A stretch of DNA of 64,000 nucleotides from Calothrix sp. PCC 7716. GTDB taxonomy: Bacteria; Cyanobacteriota; Cyanobacteriia; Cyanobacteriales; Nostocaceae. Below, piece by piece: positions 5,516 through 60,247 of the stretch (its first letter is position 1; each line of letters opens with the position of its first letter). The translations under genes were made by a program, and so were the position numbers. The notes beneath the pieces were generated by a model. That model had not been told where the DNA came from and searched no databases. It worked only from the letters and a program-made list of their open reading frames with translations. The stretch lies in contig NZ_AP025018.1 in NCBI RefSeq assembly GCF_019977735.1, forward strand, positions 7,382,580-7,446,579. The letters run 5' to 3'.

Positions 5516-6390
5516 CAGTAAGGTGGGCACTGCCCACCCTAGAAATTGTGTCTATATATAACCGAACAAACCTAAAGATATATCAATAAATAGTTACTAG
5601 ATATACAGCTTTATTATCCTTAACATTCACATAATAACTATTACACATTTTTATAAAATTTATAAAACTCTTATCCGAAATTTTATATATGTGTTAGTGT
5701 TTGAAGTAATTGTAAAGCTCAAAACTAGATATAGCTATATACGCTCTTAGTGAAGAGGATGTAATTATGAACACGCGCGAATCCTAGAAACCGGGTTTCT
5801 TTATTGAAATCTTGCAAAAAATAATATTTTTGCATAGAAACCCGGTTTCTTACGCTCTGTGATTAATATCATTTTGTTTGAAGCTTGTAACAGGTGCTGG
5901 AGTAGTTTTACTATTTTGAATTCTAGATAGATGTACACCAATATATTAGGGATGTATGACATTATTTAACTTTGCCAAAAAAATGCCAATTGTAAATAGT
6001 TTATCACTATTCCAAAATCATTTACTTAGTGCAAGTTATTTTAGTTCGCTTAGTTATTGGATAACATTATCATTATTTATTATGTAGTAAATATAAAGTA
6101 GAATAGTTCGATAACTCTTCAATACAAAAATCTGTGTCACTTTTCAACCAAATGGTATTACAATTGCTGTTAGATTAAATTTAAACAGCGTTAAAAGTTA
6201 GTCGTCATTAGTTATGAATTTTTACTTATTAATTATTACTTATTAGTAAGTAACATTAACAAATGACCTTCTGTTGACGCGAAAAACTTTGGTCATTGCA
6301 AATAAATAGCTGCTGTAAGAAACAGATAGCTCGTTTTTGGTTGGTAACAGACATTACCAATTTATTATCAACACTACCAAAGATTAGCCT
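5516..6390. other. Long AT-rich region upstream of hglE with repeats
   Basis: No gene is seen in 875 bases. It contains a gtaaggtgggcactgcccac-type palindrome at 5518-5541 and a pair of 15-base near-palindromes at 5786-5800 (agaaaccgggtttct) and 5836-5850 (agaaacccggtttct). These are inverse complements of each other, 50 bases apart. The remainder (about 5860-6390) is AT-rich and should hold the hglE promoter and leader. A TTGACG at about 6274-6279 is a possible -35-like hexamer, but no matching -10 or regulator box is convincing. Confidence 0.6.
5786..5850. repeat. Paired 15-base inverted palindromes
   Basis: agaaaccgggtttct at 5786-5800 and its reverse complement agaaacccggtttct at 5836-5850 flank an AT-rich loop. 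Each is also nearly self-complementary. The same pair, in the opposite order and 51 bases apart, lies at 30469-30534. Single diverged copies lie at 4153-4167 and 25702-25716. The layout suggests a small mobile or structural hairpin element. Confidence 0.75.
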
Positions 6391-9300
6391 ATGTCTGCTT
6401 CTTGGATAGATACAGCCTTATCACAGTTAAACGACGAAATAAGTAATTGTGAAAAGGTATTGTTCAAGTTTATTGAGGATAAAAAGAGGATGACAGCTCA
6501 AACTACGCCGATACATTTAAACAGAAAGCTGCAAGATAATCCTATTGCTATTATCGGCATGGCTAGTCTGTTTCCACAGGCAAGAACTCTGCGCGAGTAC
6601 TGGGAAAATATTATTAATAAAGTTGACTGTATTACTGATATTCCAGATTCACATTGGAATGTCGAAGATTATTATGACCCGAATCCGCGCACAACAGAAG
6701 ACAAAACTTATTGTAAACGCGGTGGTTTTATTCCTTATGTTGATTTTAACCCGATGGAATTTGGGCTACCGCCAAATATCCTCGAAGTAACTGATGTTTC
6801 GCAGTTATTAAGTTTGCTAGTAGCCAAAGAAGCGATGGAAGACGCGGGTTATAGCACATCCCGTGAATTTAACCGCGATAACGTTGGAGTAATACTCGGT
6901 GTTGCTGCCTCAAAACAACTTGCAACTCCTTTAGCCGCGCGTTTGGAATATCCTGTATGGGAAAGGGTACTCAAAAGTAGCGGGTTATCTGAAGAAGATA
7001 CGCAAAAAATCATCGAAAAGTTTAAAAGTGCTTACATCAAGTGGGATGAAAACGCTTTTCCTGGAATGTTAGCCAATGTTGTAGCTGGACGCATTGCTAA
7101 CCGTCTTAACTTTGGTGGTATTAACTGCGTTGTTGATGCAGCTTGTGCGAGTTCGTTCGGCGCCCTCAAAATGGCGATTAGCGAATTAACCGAAGGGCGT
7201 AGCGATATGATGCTCACAGGTGGGGTAGATACCGACAACTCCATCATGGCTTACATCTCGTTTAGCAAAACTCCAGCAGTTTCACCTAGCGATAATGTTA
7301 GACCCTTCGATGCTAAATCAGACGGGATGATGCTGGGCGAAGGTATTGGAATGTACGTTCTCAAGCGTCTGGCAGATGCCGAGCGCGATGGTGATAAAAT
7401 CTACGCGGTAATTAAAGGCATTGGGACTTCGAGCGATGGACGCTATAAGAGTATTTATGCACCTCGCAAAGAAGGACAAGTTAAAGCACTACAACGCGCG
7501 TATGATGATGCTGGTTTTAACCCTGCTACCGTTGGTTTAATTGAAGCACATGGTACGGGAACAATGGCAGGAGACCCCACGGAATTCGGCTCTTTACGCG
7601 ACTTCTTTGGCGAAGACAATACCAGAAAACAGTACATTGCCATTGGTAGCGTTAAATCACAAATTGGACATACTAAAGCAGCAGCAGGCGCCGCGAGTTT
7701 AATTAAAACAGCATTAGCACTGCACCACAAAGTATTGCCACCGACAATTAACATTACCGAACCGAACCCCAAATTAAATATCAAAAATTCGCCATTTTAC
7801 CTTAACGCCGAAACTCGTCCTTGGGTACGCGCAGAAGGTACACCTCCTCGACGCGCGGGTGTAAGTTCATTTGGATTTGGCGGTACTAACTATCACGTCG
7901 TTCTCGAAGAATATGCAGGCGCCACAACACCTGAAACGCCTGTGCAATCTCCCTATCGTATTCATACAACACCAGTAGAAATAATACTTTCGGCGCCCAA
8001 CCCAGCACAGTTACTTACACATTGCGAAGAAGTATTAACCAAATTACAATCAGAAGCTGGAGAAAAACAATATCTCGAATTAGTTGAGGAATGTAAAACC
8101 AAAGAAATTCCTCTAAATGCGGCACGAGTTGGATTTGTCGCTGAGTCACGCACGGAAGTAATTAAGTTATTACAACAAACAGTAGATTTACTACGTTCCA
8201 AAGCAACACCAGCATGGGAACATCCCCAAGGTATTCACTACCGTGCAACAGGGATGGAATTAAACGGTAAGGTTGTAGCACTGTTTTCTGGACAGGGTTC
8301 GCAATACTTAGAGATGGGACGCGAATTAGTAATGAACTTTCCCCAAATGCAGCGTCTTTATGGCTACATGGATAGTTTATTACTAAAAGACAACTGTCAA
8401 CCACTGTCGGAAATCGTTTTCCCTCATCCTGTATTTGATGCTACAGAGAAAGAAACTCAAGTTGCTGCACTGCAACGCACCGAATATACTCAACCAGCAA
8501 TTGGTATGTTAAGTGCAGGGATGTATAAAATTCTCACCGAAGCAGGCTTTAAATCTGACTTTACTGCTGGACATAGCTTTGGCGAATTAACAGCTTTATG
8601 GGCAGCAGGTGTATTTAGTGATGAAGATTACTGCTTCTTAGTTAAAGCGCGCGGTCGGGCAATGTCGCCACCACAAGACCCTGACTACGATGCAGGCGCC
8701 ATGCTAGCTGTAAGAGAAGAATTATCTAAAGTCGAAGCAATACTCAAACAACATCCGCACGTAAGCATTGCTAATTACAACTCTCAAAATCAAATTGTAC
8801 TCGCAGGACCAACGGTAGAAATAGGCAAAGTTAGACAAGCTTTGCAAGACCAAGGTTATAGTGCAATATTACTACCAGTATCAGCGGCATTCCACACATC
8901 GCAAATAGCCTTCGCACAGAAAGCATTTGCAATAGCGCTAAAATCTGTAAACTTCCAAACTCCCAAAATTCCAGTTTACAGCAACGTCACTGGTAATATT
9001 TACTCAAACGAACCAAAGACAATTCAACGTCTATTAGAAACCCACCTTGCCAACTCGGTACTCTTTAAACAAGAAATCGAAAATATCTATACTGCTGGTG
9101 GTTACTGCTTCGTTGAATTTGGTCCCAAGAAAATTCTTACCAATCTTGTTAAAGATATTCTTGGCAACCGTCCTCACCTAGCTATTGCACTCAACGCTTC
9201 ACCTCAAAAAAATAGTTACCGAACTCTACGCGAAGCTGCCGTACAATTGCGCGTAGCAGGAATGCCACTTAAAGACCTCGACCCATATCAAATTCCAAAA

Positions 9301-11640
9301 CAGTTAACAACCGAAACCAACAAAGGTTTAAACATTCGTATCAACGGCGTTAACTACTTATCAGAGAAAACCCAAAAAACTCGTATCGAAGCACTGCAAG
9401 ACAAACATCAAGTATCGCTTAGTAAACCAGCAACTATCGACACTCTTAGTATGGCAATAACAGAAATTTCCTTACCCGAAACCAATGGGCATCACCACAA
9501 ACCACAAATAGAACCCATTACTAATAATGGCGCCTCATCCCCCATTGCACAACCAAAACAAGAGCCAGTACAAGTACCAGTACAACCAACAGCAAACAAC
9601 CTTGCTTATTACCAACGGGTTTTGGAAAGCTTAGAATATGTCCTGGCACAATTCCAACAAAACCAAAGTGAAAACTTACAAGTTCACGGAATGTACTTGA
9701 ACCATCAGAAGGAATATGCACAAACCTTCTTCCAACTGATGCAACAACAAAACGCATTATTTGCACCATCAACTTCCAACCCTAACCCAGAAATGAAACC
9801 TGTCATCATGGAAAGCTTAGAGCGAAGCATGATGCAGTTTCACTCACAGCAAAGTGAAACCCTACGTATTCACGAACAGTACCTTCAACATCAAGTTGAG
9901 CATACCAAAAACTTCTTCCAACTCATCCAGCAAGAATATGCGGCTGTTGTAGAAGGTGATGTTAAACAGGTAAGCTCCGCCAAAGTTCAACCTGTATTGG
10001 CGCCTTCAACAAACCCTGAAGTTGCCCGCATCGAAACACCTGTCGCACCTGTGACTAAAATAGTAGAACCAGTTGCACCAAAAGTAACTATTCCCGAAAT
10101 TCCAACACCACCAGTACAACCAAAACAAGAACCAGCCCCTATACCTGTAGCAGCTACACCTGACTTATCCAACCTGAGCGACAAATTACTAACTATTACG
10201 AGTGAAAAAACAGGTTATCCCATAGAAATGCTCGAACTCGACATGGATATGGAAGCTGACCTAGGCATTGATTCCATCAAACGGGTAGAAATAATGGGCG
10301 CCTTACAAGAAGCATACCCCGAACTACCTCAACCAAACCTCGAAGAACTGAGCGAAAAACGCACCATAGGTCAAATCGTCGAATACTTACAGTCGAATTC
10401 TTCCAAAACAGCATCAGTAGAAGTTGCTAAAGTCGAAGTGCGAACCACCGCAGATATGACCCCCGTAACAGCACCTACTATTTCAGAAGTTCTAACTACG
10501 GCGCCAAGTAACGTTTTAATTCAAACTCAAACAACCATCCAAGAAGTTGCAGTTCCAACTTTAGAACTAGAAACAATACCAAGCACAAAATCTGAGTTTG
10601 AATCTAAGTTTGAAAGTCTCGACCAAACATTACTTGCTATTACAAGTGAAAAAACAGGTTATCCCATAGAAATGCTTGAACTCGACATGGATATGGAAGC
10701 TGACCTAGGAATTGACTCGATTAAACGGGTAGAAATAATGGGCGCCTTACAAGAACAATTACCCGACTTGCCCAAACCAAGTAACATGGAGGAAATGGCG
10801 GAACTCCGAACGATAGGTCAAATAGTTGAGTATCTCCAGAAGCTATCTGGAAGTGAAAAAAAAAAGTATCAGTTTGATACGATTGACCGACGAACCGATG
10901 TAGTAGTTAACGTAGTTGACGTAGGTATTAAACGACTACCTGCTCAACTTAAAAAGTTAAACGAACCAGATTGGTTAGATTTTAACTTACCACAGGGGTA
11001 TGTAGCTCTTATTACTGATGATGGTACATCAACGACAGCAAAAGTTGCTCAAAGCTTAAACGAGAAGGGATGGAAAGTTGTAGTCTTAAACCTTCCTCCC
11101 ACACTCGTCCCCGAAAAATCGGTTTTACCAGAAGGTATCGACAGAGTAATGCTGACAGACGTTTGCGAACTGCACTTACAACAAAAGCTGCACGAAATCG
11201 CAACTACATACGGTTCTGTCGGCGCTTTTATTCATATTCACCCACTCTTTCAAGTTAGTAATACCCAAGGTGTTTTCTACAGTCCACGAGAAAAAGCAAT
11301 CGTCAAACATATTTTCTTTATAGCAAAATACTTGAAGAAATCGCTAACGTCTGCAGCACAACTTGAACGCGCTTGTTTTTGCACTGTTGCCCGTCTTGAT
11401 GGAGCATTTGGACTAACTAACCAAGTAAACTTCGGCGCCGTTGGTTCGGGTTTATTTGGACTAACTAAAACAATGATTTGGGAATGGGCAAATGTTTTTT
11501 GTAGAGCAATTGACCTTAGTCCTCAACTAGATGCTGATACATCGGCACGTTGCATCATTGCTGAACTGCATGACCCAAATCGTTATCTGACTGAAGTCGC
11601 TTATGGTAGCCAGGGTCGCGTGACGTTAATTGCTAAATAA
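6391..11640 (+). CDS. hglE: Heterocyst glycolipid polyketide synthase HglE (KS-AT-ACP-ACP-KR N-part)
   Basis: This is a 1,749-residue PfaA-like type I polyketide synthase that builds the long acyl chain of heterocyst glycolipids. Domains in order: an N-terminal helical docking segment (1-45); ketosynthase (about 50-510) with the Cys252, His387, His427 triad; acyltransferase (about 630-930) with Ser729 in GHSFGE; a Q/P-rich linker holding two similar helical repeats (about 1070-1190); two acyl carrier domains with phosphopantetheine serines Ser1295 and Ser1443 in LGIDSIKR; and a C-terminal Rossmann-like part (about 1520-1745) resembling the structural half of a ketoreductase, whose catalytic half is in the KR-DH gene downstream. 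The two carrier domains are almost identical over more than 40 residues. The first gene of the hgl operon. Carrier serines would be loaded by HetI (24.9 kb). Confidence 0.93.
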   Translation: MSASWIDTALSQLNDEISNCEKVLFKFIEDKKRMTAQTTPIHLNRKLQDNPIAIIGMASLFPQARTLREYWENIINKVDCITDIPDSHWNVEDYYDPNPRTTEDKTYCKRGGFIPYVDFNPMEFGLPPNILEVTDVSQLLSLLVAKEAMEDAGYSTSREFNRDNVGVILGVAASKQLATPLAARLEYPVWERVLKSSGLSEEDTQKIIEKFKSAYIKWDENAFPGMLANVVAGRIANRLNFGGINCVVDAACASSFGALKMAISELTEGRSDMMLTGGVDTDNSIMAYISFSKTPAVSPSDNVRPFDAKSDGMMLGEGIGMYVLKRLADAERDGDKIYAVIKGIGTSSDGRYKSIYAPRKEGQVKALQRAYDDAGFNPATVGLIEAHGTGTMAGDPTEFGSLRDFFGEDNTRKQYIAIGSVKSQIGHTKAAAGAASLIKTALALHHKVLPPTINITEPNPKLNIKNSPFYLNAETRPWVRAEGTPPRRAGVSSFGFGGTNYHVVLEEYAGATTPETPVQSPYRIHTTPVEIILSAPNPAQLLTHCEEVLTKLQSEAGEKQYLELVEECKTKEIPLNAARVGFVAESRTEVIKLLQQTVDLLRSKATPAWEHPQGIHYRATGMELNGKVVALFSGQGSQYLEMGRELVMNFPQMQRLYGYMDSLLLKDNCQPLSEIVFPHPVFDATEKETQVAALQRTEYTQPAIGMLSAGMYKILTEAGFKSDFTAGHSFGELTALWAAGVFSDEDYCFLVKARGRAMSPPQDPDYDAGAMLAVREELSKVEAILKQHPHVSIANYNSQNQIVLAGPTVEIGKVRQALQDQGYSAILLPVSAAFHTSQIAFAQKAFAIALKSVNFQTPKIPVYSNVTGNIYSNEPKTIQRLLETHLANSVLFKQEIENIYTAGGYCFVEFGPKKILTNLVKDILGNRPHLAIALNASPQKNSYRTLREAAVQLRVAGMPLKDLDPYQIPKQLTTETNKGLNIRINGVNYLSEKTQKTRIEALQDKHQVSLSKPATIDTLSMAITEISLPETNGHHHKPQIEPITNNGASSPIAQPKQEPVQVPVQPTANNLAYYQRVLESLEYVLAQFQQNQSENLQVHGMYLNHQKEYAQTFFQLMQQQNALFAPSTSNPNPEMKPVIMESLERSMMQFHSQQSETLRIHEQYLQHQVEHTKNFFQLIQQEYAAVVEGDVKQVSSAKVQPVLAPSTNPEVARIETPVAPVTKIVEPVAPKVTIPEIPTPPVQPKQEPAPIPVAATPDLSNLSDKLLTITSEKTGYPIEMLELDMDMEADLGIDSIKRVEIMGALQEAYPELPQPNLEELSEKRTIGQIVEYLQSNSSKTASVEVAKVEVRTTADMTPVTAPTISEVLTTAPSNVLIQTQTTIQEVAVPTLELETIPSTKSEFESKFESLDQTLLAITSEKTGYPIEMLELDMDMEADLGIDSIKRVEIMGALQEQLPDLPKPSNMEEMAELRTIGQIVEYLQKLSGSEKKKYQFDTIDRRTDVVVNVVDVGIKRLPAQLKKLNEPDWLDFNLPQGYVALITDDGTSTTAKVAQSLNEKGWKVVVLNLPPTLVPEKSVLPEGIDRVMLTDVCELHLQQKLHEIATTYGSVGAFIHIHPLFQVSNTQGVFYSPREKAIVKHIFFIAKYLKKSLTSAAQLERACFCTVARLDGAFGLTNQVNFGAVGSGLFGLTKTMIWEWANVFCRAIDLSPQLDADTSARCIIAELHDPNRYLTEVAYGSQGRVTLIAK

Positions 11641-36111: not shown

Positions 36112-36185
36112 TATAGTAGAAGTGATTGGTAGATGCACCCTGGTTAAGCCCTAGAGAAAAAACTCTGGGGCATTTTTTATTTTTA
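36112..36185 (+). ncRNA. Candidate small RNA with own promoter and terminator between lgt and cobM
   Basis: Antisense to the direction of both neighbours, the plus strand has a -10-like TATAGT (36112-36117), then about 60 bases, then a strong hairpin GCCCTAGAG-A6-CTCTGGGGC (36148-36171) followed by ATTTTTTATTTTT. A TAC half-site (36087-36089) lies 22 bases upstream of the -10, the spacing of NtcA-activated promoters, but the paired GTA half is not conserved. Since no plus-strand gene precedes the terminator, a short regulatory RNA of about 60 nt is the simplest reading. NtcA-dependent sRNAs such as NsiR4 have this size, but identity could not be checked. Confidence 0.45.
36148..36184 (+). terminator. 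Strong hairpin terminator of the candidate sRNA
   Basis: Nine-base stem with one G-T pair and a six-A loop, followed directly by a T-rich run (ATTTTTTATTTTT). Orientation fits the plus strand only. Confidence 0.7.
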
Positions 36186-52998: not shown

Positions 52999-53272
52999 AA
53001 TTTCTATCTCGTACAGATATTATTCCCGTATAAAAGCAAAATGGAACATATGATGCACTAAATGTTCTACAATGCCAATCATGTAATATTATATACTGTA
53101 TTAAATAAATTAATACGGTGGGCACAGAGTAGAGATACGCAAACCGGAGGTTTTCCCGCAGGGATTAATTGTATCCGGACAAAGAAATTTAAAAAGAAAT
53201 ATGGGATAGCTGTACGTAAGCTAGCTTCAAGATCCGTTTTGGTACAATGGTGTGGCCCGATGCGGAAATATT
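52999..53272. other. Divergent gap between hybrid kinase and broken AAA gene
   Basis: About 270 bases. Includes gtgggcacagagtagagatacg (about 53117-53138) and aaaccggaggttttcccgcagg (53140-53161), pieces similar to other dispersed repeats, followed by a mixed stretch. Short open frames here have no support. Promoters of both genes would be in this gap. Confidence 0.45.
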
Positions 53273-54495
53273 ATGCTAACAAGGTTAAAAGTATCTGGTT
53301 TTAAGAATCTCGTCGATGTAGATGTGCGCTTCGGGCCATTTACCTGTGTAGCAGGCGCCAACGGTGTAGGAAAATCTAACTTATTCGACGCTATTAGATT
53401 TTTGAGTGCAATCGCAGACCGTCCTTTAATTGAAGCTGCTAATTCTATTCGAGATGAAGAAGGTCGAACAGCTGATATACGTGCTTTATTTCACCGTGTT
53501 GGAAGTAATTACACGGATATAATGTCGTTTGAAGCTGAGATGATTATACCCTTTGAAGGCATTGACGATTTAGGACACAAAGCAGAAGCTAGTATTACTT
53601 TTCTTCGTTACTCAATAGTTCTTACTTATAGGTCAGATGATAGCTTGCGTTCCCTCAACGGCGCCTTAGAAATACTCAAAGAAGAGCTAGTTCATATCAA
53701 CTTGAGTGATGCTAAGAAAAAGTTATTATTTCCTCATACGGCTGAGTGGAGAAAATCAGCAGTCAAGGGCAGACGTACTTCACCCTTTATTTCTACAAAA
53801 GACGATAAAGGCAAAACAGTTATTAAGCTACATCAGGACGGAAGAAATGGAAAACCTTTATCTCGACTTGCAGCGAATCTTCCAAGAACAGTCCTTTCTA
53901 TTGCAAATGCAGCAGAAAGCCCGACAATGTTACTGGCACGAAGAGAAATGCAATCGTGGCGCCTGCTTCAACTAGAACCATCAGCACTACGGCAACCTTC
54001 GGAGTTTACATCCCCAACAAAACTAGGCATGGATGGTTCGCACTTAGCAGCTACACTTTATTATCTGGCACGTTTTAATAAAGTACACCTTTCAGAAGAA
54101 CAAGCCGAGGCACATATACATATATATATAGTCAAATTGCAAATCGTTTAGCTGAACTAATTGATGATGTAGTATCCGTAAGCATTGACCGAGATGAGCG
54201 TCGCGAACTTTTAACATTAATGCTTACAACATTCATATGGTACATCACACCCAGCCCGTGCGCTAAGTGATGGAACACTACGCTTTTTAGCTTTGGCTGT
54301 TTTGGAATTAGACCCTCAAGCGCAAGGTCTTCTGTGTTTAGAAGAGCCAGAAAATGGTATACACCCAGACCGTATAACGAAAACACTAAGACTTCTTCAA
54401 GACATTGCTACCGATGCCGAAGAACCTATTGGTGTAGATAATCCATTACGGCAAGTAATAATCAACACTCATTCGCCTTCAGTTGTAACACAAGT
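53273..54495 (+). pseudogene. AAA ATPase (RecF/OLD-like), frameshifted and 3'-truncated
   Basis: From the ATG at 53273: LTRLKVSGFKNLVDVDVRF then the P-loop AGANGVGKSNLFDAI, typical of RecF/SMC-like AAA_21 ATPases. The open frame ends at 54151, but the protein goes on in another frame (YSQIANRLAELIDDVVSVSI), the shift falling in a run of TA repeats (about 54117-54139). A further shift near 54235 is needed to reach YGTSHPARALSDGTLRFLAL, then Walker B CLEEPENGIHPDRI and NTHSPSVVTQV. There the homology stops and vWA-protein sequence begins (about 54495). The gene has thus suffered two frameshifts and loss of its end. Five prime part and catalytic motifs are intact, but function is doubtful. Confidence 0.8.
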
Positions 54496-55751
54496 ACGTA
54501 TCTCTAGGGTTAAAAGAACACGAAAAGCAGCTGAACGACTTTGCTAATAACCCAGCACTGTGTGGTAAAGGACGAGTATTGCGCGACCCTGGAGGAGTGC
54601 AGCTAAACCAACTGGCTGATAATATTCGACCTGTGCTAGTTCAACCCAAACTGGATATCAATTTACCCACTGGGAATTTACAACCAGTATTACCTGGAAC
54701 AACCACCGAACCGATTAATGTTATTGCCATTAGTAATGTAAACGCCAAGGTCAGCTTGCAAATTGAACCTAATCAAAGTGGTATTCGCTTGATTTCACCT
54801 AATAGTTCAATAGAATTAGCTGCTAATAAACCCACAGCTATACCCTTGCGTTTACAAATTCCAGCAAATATAAGGGGAGGCGCCAGTAACTTACGTTTAG
54901 TTTTAAATCCTGTAAACTATAAAGTGGCGCCCATAAAAGTAGACTTTCCTGTAACCATCAAATCAGAACTACAAGTCCAACCTGCTTCTATAGATTTTGG
55001 CTTGGCAGAAACAGGTAAAATAACTGCCACTCAAACATTAGTAGTCAAAAATAATATACCTAGAACCGCAAAATTACAGATAGAAGGCACCAAAGACGTT
55101 TCTGTGCCTTCTTCAGTCACATCTGTATCCTTGCAAGCAGGGGAAACTAGAATTCCTGTGCAGTTGGAAGTTAGTGATACCAGCTTTGAAGGCGCCCGTA
55201 ACTTCACATTAGTATTAACTCCTGATAATCCAATTGCAAGTCCCACCAGTACAAAAGCTCAGATAAATATTTTTATGCCACTGTGGCGAAAAATAGTCTT
55301 GTGGTTTCTTTTATTACTGCTGGTGTTGCTAATTGCGCTGACAGTAACTTGTTTGATTAAACGTAAAACTCCTTTTGAATTACTCCAAGATATCCAAAAT
55401 CGCAAATACTTGGAAGGAGCTATTTTTGTACTGGAACCGTTGCCAAAATCTTCAGAAGACGAAGAAATTAGTTTGACTCGCCTCCACAAAACTAAAGTAC
55501 TACTAAGCGATTTGATACCAGAGGTTGCTGCAACTAATTCTGATGCTGAATTAGTCGTAGCATGGGAAGCTGGGAAAAAAAAGATAGAGCTACGGTGTTT
55601 GAAAGGTGTAATTTATGTCAATACTAAGGAAGTAACTACATATGAACTTTACGATGACGATGTTATCGAAATTGGTAAAGTAAAACTGCAATTTAACTGG
55701 ATTGAACATCAACGCCCCTTTGAAATCAGTAGCGGTGAAGATGCCTATTAA
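54495..55751 (+). pseudogene. vWA-type / TM / FHA-like protein lacking its N-terminal domain
   Basis: The open frame starts with YVSLGLKEHEKQLNDFANNP directly at the break in the AAA gene; the first usable start is a TTG at 54579 (390 residues). The first 40 codons look like the end of a von Willebrand A-like domain (strand-helix-GKGRVLRDPGG-VQLNQLADNI), whose MIDAS part is missing. Then come two to three Ig-like beta repeats (about residues 40-225 of the 390), a membrane helix (IVLWFLLLLLVLLIALTVTCL) and a C-terminal cytosolic part ending in an FHA-like strand set (GVIYVNTKEVTTYELYDDDV, IEIGKVKLQFNW). It lies 46 bases before the tubulin-like gene. Whether the shortened protein is made is unclear; the downstream genes are intact. 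Confidence 0.65.
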
Positions 55752-55797: not shown

Positions 55798-58533
55798 ATG
55801 TCACGTCCTACGGTTGTTTTTCGTCCTACTGTTGTAATTGGGTTAGGTGGTACAGGTTATGAAGTTGTACTCAAGCTTAAAAAGCGCTTTATAGACGCTT
55901 ACGGTTATGTACCAGAAATTATTCGTTTTCTTTCGATTGATACTACCGAAAATATCAAAGAACGAGAAAAGTCACCAGATGGCAACAAGGTGATTTTAGA
56001 ACCGAATGAGCTTTATGCAATATCTGTAGCAAATCCAATACCTTACACACGTAACGATAATATTGCTGAATGGTGGCCTAAAGACATTCCAACATCTAGT
56101 TTAATCAGTGGCGCCGGACAAATTCGAGCGCGTGGAAGGTTAGCATTATTTGCGAAAGTGGGCGATATAAACGGTTTAATCGCTCAAGCAATTAACACTG
56201 TACGCGAAATTCGTACTTCATCACAAGCATTTTCAGACAACTTTCAAGTTTCCAACCGCGATGGTGTCGAGATTTTCATTGTTGGCAGTTTAGCTGGGGG
56301 AACAGGAAGTGGAACGTTTTTAGATATAGCATTTTTAGCTCGGCAATATCTCAATAGCTTCTCTAATATTACGGGAGTATTTGTTTTACCAAGAGTGTTT
56401 GCCAATCTTCCCCAAACTCATTTAGTCAAGTCAAACGCTTATGGCGCCCTCAAGGAAATCGAACACTTTTGGGGCTTGACACCATCCAATACTATTGAAA
56501 TTGACTACGGTGTAGCAAAGGTAAGAGCCGACCGTCCCCCGTTTGATGCTGTGTTTTTAATTGATGGTGTTAATAAAAAAGGAACTGTTGTTTCGCGTCC
56601 TGATGATTTGCAAAATTTAGTCGCAGATGGTTTATATGTCCAGATTGGTTCTCAAATAGGTTTAGATGCTGCTAACGTTGCCGATAATATTCGCGCTTAT
56701 TTAGCAACTGGTGAAAAAGTTCGAGGACGCAAAATAAATTACTGTAGTTTTGGCTTTGCTACTCTAACTCTGCCAGTACAACAGTATGAGCGAATGAAAC
56801 TAGAAGATGCTCAAAGCTTGCTTAAGAACGAATTGATGGCGCCGACACTCCCCCTTGATATAGATAGCGAAGTCGCACGTTTTCTGATCGACTCTAATTT
56901 GGCAGAAGCTGCTACTGTTTTAAATGCGTTGACAGAAAGTGAGCATGGAGGACAGTTTAAACAAGAGTTTAGAATTGGCGAAATGCGTTATGACCGTACA
57001 GCATTGCCAACAATAAAAGAACTCTACAAGCGTCAGTCAGACCAAATGGAGCAACGAGCAGCAAAAGAACTAATAGCAAATTTTTCTCGCTTAGAGCAAA
57101 TTACAACTGGCGCCATAGAAGCATGGTGGGAACGTGCTTTCAACCGTCCGAATGGTCTAGCTTATACTTTAAAATTTTTGACTCAACTTTACCCCAAACT
57201 TGATGAATTGCAGCAGAGTGTGCAGCGTAAGTCACAGGAAGCGCAATCTAGTTTTAATGCATTAAAATTAGAGCCGCAAGAAGAAAAAATTAAACAAGCA
57301 GCAGAAGCACTTTTCTCAAATAAAAATAATATTCAAGCAGCTTGCCAAAGATATAAAGAGCGTACTGACCAAAAATGGAAAATTTACCTACATTGGAAGC
57401 GATGTGACAAAGCTGCTGAACTTTACGGTATACTACGAGCGAAAATAGAAGAAATTAAGGAAAAGTGCCAACGTATTCACAGCAATCTAGATAAAGTTTA
57501 CCGAGATATAGAACAAAGTTATAGCGAAGTTAACCGTCAAGCAACTAACGATAATCCTTTTATTCACACAATTGCCCGCGTCAACTTGCAATCAAAGCGT
57601 CCTAAAATTAGTGGCGAAGACTTTATTCGTTGGTATCGAGAACAATCTCAAACTTTAACCAAGTGGTCAGATAAAAGAGCTACTGACGTTAAAAATGAAA
57701 TCGTGGCATTTTTAGACGAGATTTACCATCCACTCACTAATATGACTGTTGAGCAAGTTTTGGCAGATAGTAACCCAGAAGATGCGGGAGAAGATTTGCA
57801 ACAACTTGGCAGACTAGCAGTACCTCTATGGCAATACGACGATGCGGAAATACCCACTCAGCAGCAGCACATAATAACAGAGTTTTATTATTACGGAGTC
57901 GAAAGTAATAATACTATTTTTAGCAGTCCACCTCTTTCGAGTCGTTTACCAAAGGGAAGAACTAATCCTGCTTTTGTACCAACGGGTGAACCCCATAAGC
58001 TTACACTGTTTCGAGTTGAAATAGGTGTTCCATTATTTGCCTTTAATGGAATGAAGGATATGGAGCAAGCTTACCTAGACCCCAATAAAGTCTTCAAGCA
58101 CTTAGACCGTAATTGGACAAACCTTCCTAATTTAGTTCCACCGGAAGATGACGGAGGAGCGCTGCGCTGGTTTGCTTTAGCACTGGCGCCTGACATGTAT
58201 AAATTAATTGTTAACAAAAATAAAAAATACTTTGTCCATACAGAGCAAGCTCGAAAATTAGAAGATGGAATGTTGCTTTTGGGAGAAAATCGCAAATCAG
58301 CATTTAAAGCTTTCAAAAGCAACTTACCTCTAGTTAAGGAAATTGCAGACAAAGTTGAGCATATTATTACCCACAAAGACGAAGACACAGCTAAATCTAC
58401 TTTGTCGAATTACATTAATTATCTCAATCAGCGTTTAAGGGATGGTCAGGTTGATTCCCAAGTAAAAGAACAGGTAGAAATGGAAATTCAAGAAATAGAA
58501 ACATACCTAGAAGAATTAGATGTAATTAGCTAA
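55798..58533 (+). CDS. Large tubulin-like GTPase protein (Tubulin_2 family)
   Basis: 911 residues. The N-terminal third is a tubulin/FtsZ-like domain of the PF13809 type: VVIGLGGTGYEVVLKLK at the start, and the GTP-binding loop GSLAGGTGSGTFLD (residues 163-176). Further conserved parts are LPRVFANL (about 198-204), AYGALKEIE (214-222) and PPFDAVFLIDGVN (248-259). Residues about 420-640 are a long coiled-coil helical region. The C-terminal part has VEQVLADSN (651-659) and LTLFRVEIGVPLFAF (735-749). Family members are large bacterial proteins of unknown role, often beside vWA proteins. It is preceded by a strong GAGAGGA ribosome site and a vWA/FHA-like membrane protein, and followed by two paralogous half-size genes. 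The set suggests a GTPase assembly at the membrane. Confidence 0.85.
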   Translation: MSRPTVVFRPTVVIGLGGTGYEVVLKLKKRFIDAYGYVPEIIRFLSIDTTENIKEREKSPDGNKVILEPNELYAISVANPIPYTRNDNIAEWWPKDIPTSSLISGAGQIRARGRLALFAKVGDINGLIAQAINTVREIRTSSQAFSDNFQVSNRDGVEIFIVGSLAGGTGSGTFLDIAFLARQYLNSFSNITGVFVLPRVFANLPQTHLVKSNAYGALKEIEHFWGLTPSNTIEIDYGVAKVRADRPPFDAVFLIDGVNKKGTVVSRPDDLQNLVADGLYVQIGSQIGLDAANVADNIRAYLATGEKVRGRKINYCSFGFATLTLPVQQYERMKLEDAQSLLKNELMAPTLPLDIDSEVARFLIDSNLAEAATVLNALTESEHGGQFKQEFRIGEMRYDRTALPTIKELYKRQSDQMEQRAAKELIANFSRLEQITTGAIEAWWERAFNRPNGLAYTLKFLTQLYPKLDELQQSVQRKSQEAQSSFNALKLEPQEEKIKQAAEALFSNKNNIQAACQRYKERTDQKWKIYLHWKRCDKAAELYGILRAKIEEIKEKCQRIHSNLDKVYRDIEQSYSEVNRQATNDNPFIHTIARVNLQSKRPKISGEDFIRWYREQSQTLTKWSDKRATDVKNEIVAFLDEIYHPLTNMTVEQVLADSNPEDAGEDLQQLGRLAVPLWQYDDAEIPTQQQHIITEFYYYGVESNNTIFSSPPLSSRLPKGRTNPAFVPTGEPHKLTLFRVEIGVPLFAFNGMKDMEQAYLDPNKVFKHLDRNWTNLPNLVPPEDDGGALRWFALALAPDMYKLIVNKNKKYFVHTEQARKLEDGMLLLGENRKSAFKAFKSNLPLVKEIADKVEHIITHKDEDTAKSTLSNYINYLNQRLRDGQVDSQVKEQVEMEIQEIETYLEELDVIS

Positions 58534-58566
58534 CCTTACTTACCTAAAACTCTCTTAACTCTTCTT

Positions 58567-58596
58567 ACCTTTGTGACCTTTGTGACCTTTGTGGTT
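58567..58596. repeat. Tandem tttgtgacc repeat
   Basis: The 9-base unit tttgtgacc is repeated three times, in the 77-base gap between the tubulin-like gene and the next gene, ending tttgtggttt. Confidence 0.8.
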
Positions 58597-58610
58597 TAAT
58601 TTTCATTCCC

Positions 58611-59354
58611 ATGCCAAAACCAACAATTTTACTAGCACTCGACCCCCGTAGTGCCGCATTTTGTGCAGCCATTAAGCGGCAACTCCAAACATCAAGCACA
58701 ATTCAAAGCAGTTTAATACAGACTTATACCCTAAATTGGGACGGACAAGCTTTTAGCTTTAGTCCTGAATTAAACCAATTCGCTGACACAAGTTTTAACC
58801 TTGCACAAACTCATAGTAAAACTTCTGTCTCTCAAATCCGTACTTCCTTCACCCAAGCTGCTAGTAAACTCCAAACCGAACTAATTAATTTAATCAAATC
58901 AGCAAATCAATCTCCCGAAGCTATTGCAGCAAAACGCCAAGGACTAGAAATTAGCAGCGCACATCAAATATATCTGATGCTGTCAGCCAGTAATCATCTA
59001 GCTAGGGGAGTCGTTTTTGAGCTAGTACGTTTGATTCGCTGGTTATTTAGTACGTATTCTCCAGATATACCCTACAGTTTAGAAGCTTTACTATTATTAC
59101 CAGGATTATTTGCCGAAGTCACAACTGCTGATTACAGTGCAGCATATGGACTCCTCAAAGAGTTAGATTACAAAATGAACATTGGAGTTGTAGTTGCAGC
59201 TAGTCAAAGAGCTACTCCCTTCGATAATTGCTGGCTAATTGATGGACGCATTGGTGAACTTAAAGATAATTTAAGTAGCTATGCTGATACTTTTGCAGGT
59301 TTTCTGACTGTTGAGGCGAGCAAGCAAAAACAATTTATTCCGAAACTAGATTGA
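58611..59354 (+). CDS. Degenerate tubulin-like domain protein (N-half paralogue)
   Basis: 247 residues. I do not know a named family, but by eye it follows the N-terminal domain of the upstream tubulin-like protein: LLPGLFAEV (162-170) matches VLPRVFANL, AAYGLLKELD (177-186) matches NAYGALKEIE, and TPFDNCWLIDG (202-212) matches PPFDAVFLIDG. Where the large protein has GGTGSG, this one has SASNHLARG (125-133), so the GTP loop is lost. It also has a different N-terminus (PTILLALDPRSAAFCA in place of VVIGLGGTGYE). It is thus a likely pseudo-GTPase partner. The next gene overlaps by four bases (TTGA). The assignment is my own alignment and needs checking by structure or profile. Confidence 0.6.
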   Translation: MPKPTILLALDPRSAAFCAAIKRQLQTSSTIQSSLIQTYTLNWDGQAFSFSPELNQFADTSFNLAQTHSKTSVSQIRTSFTQAASKLQTELINLIKSANQSPEAIAAKRQGLEISSAHQIYLMLSASNHLARGVVFELVRLIRWLFSTYSPDIPYSLEALLLLPGLFAEVTTADYSAAYGLLKELDYKMNIGVVVAASQRATPFDNCWLIDGRIGELKDNLSSYADTFAGFLTVEASKQKQFIPKLD

Positions 59355-60247
59355 CTGTTTTAACTGATACTGATATTGATGCATACTATCAAAATTTCCT
59401 AGCATCAAATTCAACAGATAAATTTACTCAAGAAAAAGTTAGTCGCTCTCAGTCATGGAAAATATCTGCCGAAGACTTTAAAAACCAGCTCATCCCATTT
59501 GCTCAGAAACAGTTTGAGCAGCTAAGTAATTTGTCAATAGGCGAAGTATTAAAAAAATCAGATTTAATTTCGGCAAATACTGCCACCTTGCGTTTAAATC
59601 AGCTTCATGATAGTGCTAACCTGTTACTCCGACTTCAAGATATTGATACAAACTTAAACCCAACTTCTCAACGTGAAACAAATCTTTGGGTGGCGCCGAA
59701 AGATAAAGAGCAAATTTTTGGACATTACAGTCGCTTAAGTAGAACTTTAACAGCTTTAGAAGCAGAAGACGAGCTACGGTTATGCATTTTAACTCGTTCT
59801 TTGGGCTTTCCAGCTTATTTTCTCAGTAAAATTGAGTTTTATCGAGACTGCTATGAACGCGCGCAAAGCGAACAAAAAGAGTCAGATGAGCTAGACAATA
59901 TACCTGATTTAATACCAGATGAAATTGGTTCAAATCGTGAGTTTATATTAGCTTATTCTACCTTAATGTTAGCAATTGCTCTAAATATGATATCTCAATC
60001 TCAAGGAGAATATAAATTCAAAGGTCAATTGCTAGGTGAAGAGCGAGAACAAATCGCCTTAGCTTTAGCAACCGAGTTTACCTTTCAAGAGCTATATGAG
60101 GAAATTAGAGAAAGTATAGAAGCATTTGAACATGACTTGATTTACCAAAATTTACATAAATTAGGTGATACTTTAGCAAATGATTTAACTCGTAATGAGC
60201 GTAAAATATTAGATAATTTGAAGAAGGAGTATAATCCTTTGAATTAG
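59351..60247 (+). CDS. C-terminal-half paralogue of the tubulin-like protein
   Basis: 298 residues from a TTG that overlaps the previous stop, so it is translationally coupled. Mostly helical and acidic; no motif known to me. By eye, IGEVLKKSD (63-71) followed by LRLNQLHDSANLLLRL matches VEQVLADSN and LQQLGRLAVPLWQY of the large tubulin-like protein (651-680), and LRLCILTRSLGFPAYFLS (142-159) matches LTLFRVEIGVPLFAFNG (735-751); the order is kept. With the 247-residue gene it therefore makes a second, split tubulin-like protein without the central coiled coil and GTP loop. A HYSRLSRTL segment (125-133) and a long C-terminal helix pair are extra. Role unknown; probably an assembly partner. Confidence 0.6.
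   Translation: MTVLTDTDIDAYYQNFLASNSTDKFTQEKVSRSQSWKISAEDFKNQLIPFAQKQFEQLSNLSIGEVLKKSDLISANTATLRLNQLHDSANLLLRLQDIDTNLNPTSQRETNLWVAPKDKEQIFGHYSRLSRTLTALEAEDELRLCILTRSLGFPAYFLSKIEFYRDCYERAQSEQKESDELDNIPDLIPDEIGSNREFILAYSTLMLAIALNMISQSQGEYKFKGQLLGEEREQIALALATEFTFQELYEEIRESIEAFEHDLIYQNLHKLGDTLANDLTRNERKILDNLKKEYNPLN

Follow-up and report, generated by a model that had tools for sequence, protein, structure and literature searches.

An apparently decayed cassette in Calothrix sp. PCC 7716 that pairs an FtsZl1 GTPase with a loop-less, predicted membrane-anchored paralogue

FtsZl1 proteins have been reported from diverse bacteria and archaea, and to our knowledge no function has been demonstrated for them. 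They were defined by Makarova and Koonin in 2010 with vWA neighbours, a coiled coil and a helical C-terminal domain, and in that paper (PMC2875224) membrane remodelling is proposed for FtsZl1 systems, it is allowed that FtsZl1 may itself not assemble into ordinary filaments, and a reviewer asks how a cytoplasmic FtsZl1 could act together with periplasmic proteins. The FtsZl1-associated genes named there are vWA, kinases, P-loop GTPases, OmpA-like genes and uncharacterised families. The subject of this report is a locus on the forward strand of a 64,000-nucleotide stretch of the Calothrix sp. PCC 7716 genome (contig NZ_AP025018.1, positions 7,382,580 to 7,446,579), hereafter the window, whose first letter is position 1. 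Judged against its relatives, the locus appears to be a decayed version of a cassette of some filamentous cyanobacteria whose three genes code for a vWA protein (gene 1), an FtsZl1 GTPase (gene 2) and a third protein that is apparently derived from FtsZl1 (gene 3). Because the third protein is without the GTP loop, it is termed pseudo-FtsZl1 here and is not filed as an FtsZl1 member.

In alpha/beta tubulin and in BtubA/BtubB heterodimers, two paralogous tubulin-family subunits act together and both bind nucleotide. The cassette resembles these systems in having two paralogous tubulin-family subunits, which would likewise work jointly, and differs from them in that one partner lacks both glycine loops and has a predicted membrane anchor. 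We know of no non-canonical archaeal FtsZ paralogue that is membrane-anchored or encoded beside an FtsZl1 gene. Those archaeal proteins are similar to the third protein in being FtsZ-superfamily paralogues without the usual motifs (PMC2875224). The closest likeness is to the FtsZl1/vWA operons of the same paper, as a vWA gene with a metal ion-dependent adhesion site (MIDAS) adjoins the GTPase gene in the intact relatives; the difference is that the GTPase is shorter here (910–926 amino acids, aa) and has as its partner a loop-less FtsZl1 paralogue with transmembrane segments. A previous sequence-only reading of this DNA had described a machine of such composition as not known. This holds in so far as the parts of PMC2875224 covered here make no mention of a loop-less, membrane-anchored FtsZl1 paralogue; the combination of FtsZl1 with vWA, however, was described in 2010, and the third family could be among the uncharacterised families of that paper. 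The cassette of vWA protein, FtsZl1 and membrane-anchored pseudo-FtsZl1 is therefore presented as an apparent variant of a known system, its novelty being judged against this one paper.

Gene 2 (55798..58533) is intact and codes for a protein of 911 aa with an N-terminal PF13809 (Tubulin_2) domain (E 7.9e-64; 216.6 bits against a cut-off of 27), which is the sole PF13809 match of the Calothrix genome. The T1 loop reads GLGGTG (residues 15–20) and the T4 loop AGGTGSG (residues 166–172), so that the first glycine of the GGGTG(S/T)G-type loop is replaced by alanine; GGTGSG itself is present in all 20 GTPases of the subfamily. These results bear out the previous identification of a tubulin-like GTPase with a GTP loop, and by the criteria that could be tried (PF13809, GTP loop, vWA neighbour) the protein is classed as FtsZl1. 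The 20 subfamily GTPases measure 910–926 aa, against 1049–1197 aa for 13 ordinary cyanobacterial Tubulin_2 proteins, and a Kyte–Doolittle scan (window 19, threshold 1.6, as in all transmembrane calls below) found transmembrane segments in none of the 20 and none of the 13. An AlphaFold2 model of the GTPase, poor overall, contains long helices at residues 402–448, 453–488 and 509–580, in blocks mostly with a predicted local distance difference test (pLDDT) score near or above 80. The main relative used for comparison was the locus of Dulcicalothrix desertica PCC 7102 (L017), whose coordinates fit genome G332, presumably the same genome. Against it the ratio of nonsynonymous to synonymous substitution rates (dN/dS) of gene 2 was 0.052 over 768 codons. 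The L017 GTPase gene (7195–9900) is interrupted by an in-frame stop after codon 768 and reads GLGGTD for GLGGTG, so that the damage there has struck another gene of the cassette than in the window. At another locus from a same-class genome (L033), tandem ORFs (open reading frames) of 512 and 549 aa (6352–7890 and 8382–10031) have weak PF13809 scores and glycine-rich GGGT loops; to judge by these they are another tubulin-like pair.

Gene 3 is represented in the window by two ORFs, one of 247 aa (58611..59354) and one of 298 aa (59351–60247, with a TTG start). Their positions, every sequence block quoted in the sequence-only reading and the SASNHLARG that takes the place of the GTP loop were all found where that reading had put them. 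Neither ORF matched a Pfam family at E up to 1. Homology to the GTPase was tested through intact relatives of the third gene, by profile–profile comparison (hhalign) domain by domain with 13 sequences on each side. The N domain of the third protein matched that of the GTPase (Prob 92.9, E 3.7e-7) and the C domain matched the C domain (Prob 96.3, E 1.8e-9), whereas the middle parts were unmatched (Prob 3.7). Four reversed or cross-domain controls gave Prob 0.1–0.3. A previous comparison over the whole length, with 12 sequences on each side, had been weaker, the C-terminal part aligning alone (Prob 47.9, E 1.9e-4). When the N domain, with more sequences, was compared with the 13 ordinary Tubulin_2 proteins, the match rose to Prob 97.6 (E 4.7e-12), while all eight controls stayed at Prob 0.3 or less and the reversed one at 0.1; chance similarity was rejected on both sets of controls. 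In addition, the third protein of D. desertica found the window's own GTPase gene by tblastn (24% identity over 204 aa, E 5e-8). Paralogy of the third protein and the GTPase stands on sequence, and the claim of homology between the small ORFs and the N- and C-terminal domains of the GTPase is upheld. A PDB sequence search with two queries (A4 and A3) returned matches at E 0.09 or worse, all in the helical middle parts, and none to the N domain of the third protein; no NCBIfam family was above its cut-off for six proteins from genes 1, 2 and 3.

The loss of the GTP loops was followed in 30 distinct full-length third proteins, a set defined as distinct ORFs of 850 aa or more that includes one of 922 aa ending at a contig end (L027); a smaller set of 25 excluded full-length third proteins whose C terminus missed a text pattern. 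The motif GGxGxG was present in none of the 30. At the position of T1, where the GTPase has GLGGTG, the third proteins read ALDPHS (22), ALDPYS (4), AVDPYS (2) or ALDPHG (2), the pairing with the GTPase being read by eye. The two ALDPHG sequences come from loci L053 and L054, the other 28 of the 30 ending in serine, and the D-P-x-S core of the 13-row alignment is thus not strictly invariant. At the position of T4 (SLAGGTGSG in the GTPase) they carry SASN..ARG or variants of it, and ATTAYPTCRD in the distant family f33 (L030). Central transmembrane segments are predicted in all 30 proteins, as two separate segments in 27 and as one long stretch in 3, and the L017 and L057 proteins have an extra weak hydrophobic segment near residues 913–937. 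In a low-confidence AlphaFold2 model the central part forms two long helices (480–589 and 592–716). The sequence-only reading had paired an active GTPase with a pseudo-GTPase partner cut in two; the homologous, loop-less partner and its conserved proximity are confirmed, but a partner that is naturally in two pieces and without its middle is not supported.

The evidence for this last point comes from the comparison with L017, in which the third protein is 1019 aa long. The 247-aa ORF matches residues 1–236 of that protein with 92% identity, and its last 11 residues are an out-of-frame read-through beyond a deletion. The C-terminal piece (59318..60247) is 95% identical over residues 711–1019. 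Blastn blocks and the junction sequences place the deletion at 59316..59318 of the window, where 1,421 bases of L017 (10708–12128, residues 237–710) are absent and the frame is shifted; the deleted segment contains the transmembrane segments (564–622 in L017). The TTG start of the 298-aa ORF at 59351 falls inside conserved coding sequence and is most likely not a genuine start; the two ORFs overlap there in a TTGA stop/start. The full-length gene is a single ORF in 27 of the 217 genomes of the same family (stop-to-stop frames of 1019–1053 aa), on which a naturally split third gene was rejected, and in L030 it codes for 1054 aa, again in one ORF. The apparent split in Calothrix is accordingly read as a deletion scar, and neither the 'two coupled genes' nor the missing middle as a natural state is confirmed, the middle part being present in relatives. 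Broken copies of the third gene occur in other relatives as well, for example in genomes G340, G378, G402 and G362. The third-gene pieces have dN/dS values against L017 (0.16–0.21) similar to those obtained when copies from other genomes are compared with each other (0.11–0.24), and the GTPase is at 0.05; this points either to recent damage or to continued selection on some parts.

A match of any kind to the third gene was found in 41 of the 217 family genomes, full-length in 27 and partial in 14. In all 27 full-length cases the gene immediately upstream, in the same orientation, is that of the subfamily GTPase, with gaps of 14–230 nt, which answers the question, raised in the sequence-only reading, of whether the genes stay neighbours in other genomes. 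In G356 and G405 this upstream GTPase is incomplete in one frame, and in L017/G332 it has the internal stop; among the 27 genomes, G349 is 38% contaminated and G385 7%. The one other subfamily match above 1600 bits is the window's own GTPase. The 14 genomes with partial copies include the window's own, G030, where the match begins at contig base 128, and others with stops or gaps; four of them (G000, G014, G357 and G444) show a subfamily GTPase or its remains. In a sample of 242 genomes of the class, the four that carry the third gene are those with a Tubulin_2 frame of 911–935 aa scoring about 200 bits. Outside the family, two carriers were found among 388 class genomes, both in f33 (L030, L031) and with the same gene order, and no further carriers among 244 genomes of the phylum. 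Mirror-tree correlation between GTPase and third protein was 0.933 (17 pairs), or 0.858 without the f33 pair, a value that none of 2000 permutations reached. Two loci that appear to be the same contig (L010 and L019) were counted once; the vWA and GTPase genes overlap there by 4 nt. At one locus (L077 6835–11199, genome G340) the subfamily GTPase was not found in the cassette, where the vWA remnant is followed by a 206-aa ORF and then by a third gene with a frameshift.

No other constant neighbour of the cassette was seen by eye among the loci listed. At L032 (1400–5382, genome G258) it stands beside genes that we take, by eye, to be PP2C-like and CHAT/FHA-like; these were not seen at the other loci viewed. 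Near ordinary Tubulin_2 genes no clear relative of the third gene was found at 14 same-class loci (ORFs of 120 aa and more), and within those loci the paralogue thus appears restricted to this subfamily. Weak third-protein scores at ordinary loci fall on the Tubulin_2 proteins themselves, except at L072 (E 0.0037, a 560-aa ORF), which may be the continuation of a broken Tubulin_2 gene. Four of the ordinary loci (L066, L068, L070 and L071) show a recurrent, different arrangement, in which the Tubulin_2 gene is followed by an ORF of 567–697 aa with hydrophobic stretches and one of 217–260 aa. Searches beyond the phylum consisted of a plasmid collection and one contig scan with the 247-aa piece. 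The scan found 7 loci, all cyanobacterial, and neither of two third-protein queries matched any of 72,556 plasmid records, so that plasmid-borne spread was rejected.

The vWA gene is also damaged in the window. Its remnant (54495..55751) corresponds to residues 195–612 of the L017 protein (82% identity by tblastn) and contains a 390-aa ORF (54579–55751) with a transmembrane segment at ORF residues 229–264. Missing are the first 194 residues, which hold the hydrophobic stretch at the N terminus and most of the vWA domain; in the intact 612-aa L017 protein this domain spans residues 49–165 or 49–234 according to two models. What remains is a set of weakly Ig/ASH-like repeats, one transmembrane helix and a weakly FHA-like C terminus (MU2_FHA, E 0.047, below its cut-off). 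The proposal of a membrane protein with vWA, Ig and FHA-like parts is not confirmed for the window ORF, which is without most of the vWA domain and whose FHA label is weak. An upstream vWA gene with the MIDAS sequence DTSAS was present at 18 of 21 places, the misses being the truncated window copy, L011 and L014; the last two both reach contig ends, and L014 has an internal gap besides. In five intact vWA proteins a transmembrane helix lies near residues 446–495 in all, and the N-terminal hydrophobic stretch is over the threshold in two; the signal peptide was judged by eye. Immediately upstream are the remains, in several frames, of a HEC-01A-like AAA/ABC-type ATPase (53225..54547; PADLOC HEC-01A, E 3.9e-62 on a 299-aa piece), cut at about 54495 where it is joined to the vWA remnant. 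This candidate defence ATPase of PADLOC lies outside the conserved cassette, and recurs at one of 21 relative loci, where its first 55 residues, 93% identical, stand upstream of the vWA gene of a congener (L080, 16579–16743). Within a comparison set of L017, L079 and L080, the vWA remnant is closer to L079 (dS 0.33) than to L017 (0.53), while the GTPase and the third-gene pieces are closest to L017 (dS 0.12–0.16), a mosaic that suggests recombination within the cassette.

Starting from the homology, gene order, loop loss, predicted transmembrane segments, joint occurrence and lesions, all read from the sequences themselves, we consider it probable that the locus is a decayed cassette in which pseudo-FtsZl1 would bind the GTPase and hold, nucleate or cap its polymer at the membrane. 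The vWA protein, with a putative signal peptide and one transmembrane helix, would expose its vWA domain outside the cytoplasm, and input received there may pass through that helix and the cytoplasmic tail. The FtsZl1 GTPase would be cytoplasmic. The pseudo-subunit, with other sequences in place of both glycine loops and its central predicted segments usually forming a hairpin, may bind the GTPase by way of the two homologous end domains; most likely it tethers the cytoplasmic GTPase and perhaps co-assembles with it. With the anchor destroyed in the window, and little of the vWA domain left, the GTPase would be orphaned and the system is probably inactive in this organism. Several results weigh against this account. 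PF13809 reaches the third protein directly in 3 of 13 cases (E up to 10; best 7.7e-4), one such score being 15.3 bits, below the cut-off of 27, and the two AlphaFold2 models, both built on 12-sequence alignments, are poor (mean pLDDT 49.2 and 50.6, with the N domains mostly below 50) and leave the fold unsupported. No subfamily GTPase was seen in ten of the 14 genomes with a partial third gene, and G338, G036 and G360 have weak remains of the GTPase without a third-gene match. The substitution rates also leave room for some residual function of the third-gene pieces.

Were the two small ORFs functional, naturally separate genes, the pseudo-GTPase would work in two pieces without a coiled coil. 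Both are indeed open, they meet in the TTGA overlap and their dN/dS against L017 indicates purifying selection, but such rates are equally expected from a recent deletion, the homologues in the 27 family genomes and L030 are single ORFs, the longer frame begins inside conserved coding sequence, the shorter ends in 11 unrelated residues, and the transmembrane segments are gone; this explanation is scarcely credible. That the deletions are assembly errors, the strain itself having intact genes 1 and 3, is very unlikely. The deletion is known from one assembly only; however, that assembly (12.37 Mb in 10 contigs, 100% completeness) contains two distinct lesions in one operon, one of which fuses the vWA gene to the broken gene of an unrelated ATPase, and the relatives named above carry broken third genes of their own. 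It is also unlikely that the cassette serves conflict or defence instead of membrane remodelling. Its patchy spread (some trace in 41 of 217 family genomes, 14 of the 41 partial) would suit such a role, as would the HEC-01A-like ATPase beside it here and at L080, whereas PADLOC gave E 0.025 or worse on the window's cassette ORFs, and of six intact cassette proteins five drew no hit at E up to 0.1 and one scored 0.038 and 0.051. The ATPase at one of 21 relative loci and the absence of the third protein from plasmid records likewise speak against it.

Beside the probable account, in which pseudo-FtsZl1 engages the GTPase at the membrane, stand two further readings, each of which we hold rather doubtful. 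The third protein might serve merely as a receptor or regulator in the membrane, recruiting or switching the GTPase without joining a mixed polymer; the loss of both glycine loops and the transmembrane segments between two end domains are consistent with this, as is the doubt, noted in PMC2875224, whether FtsZl1 forms ordinary filaments, but a mere anchor would not need the relatives of both GTPase end domains that it has retained. Tentatively, the pair might instead form an obligate two-component tubulin-type assembly of a GTP-binding and a nucleotide-free FtsZl1, the latter built into the membrane by the hairpin between its end domains. The silent subunit would then provide the interface for triggering hydrolysis, or complete it, and the polymer would form at the membrane only, gated from the periplasm through the vWA protein. 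If such a mixed polymer is real, the tubulin family would include an assembly in which one subunit is embedded in the membrane and binds no nucleotide. A paralogue with predicted transmembrane segments beside the GTPase, as in every full-length case in the family, provides a concrete physical link, and the cassette offers a compact three-gene system that is open to testing.

Elsewhere in the window, an Rfam match to NsiR1 (nitrogen stress-induced RNA 1) lies at 36127–36179 (51.9 bits, with a gathering threshold of 39).

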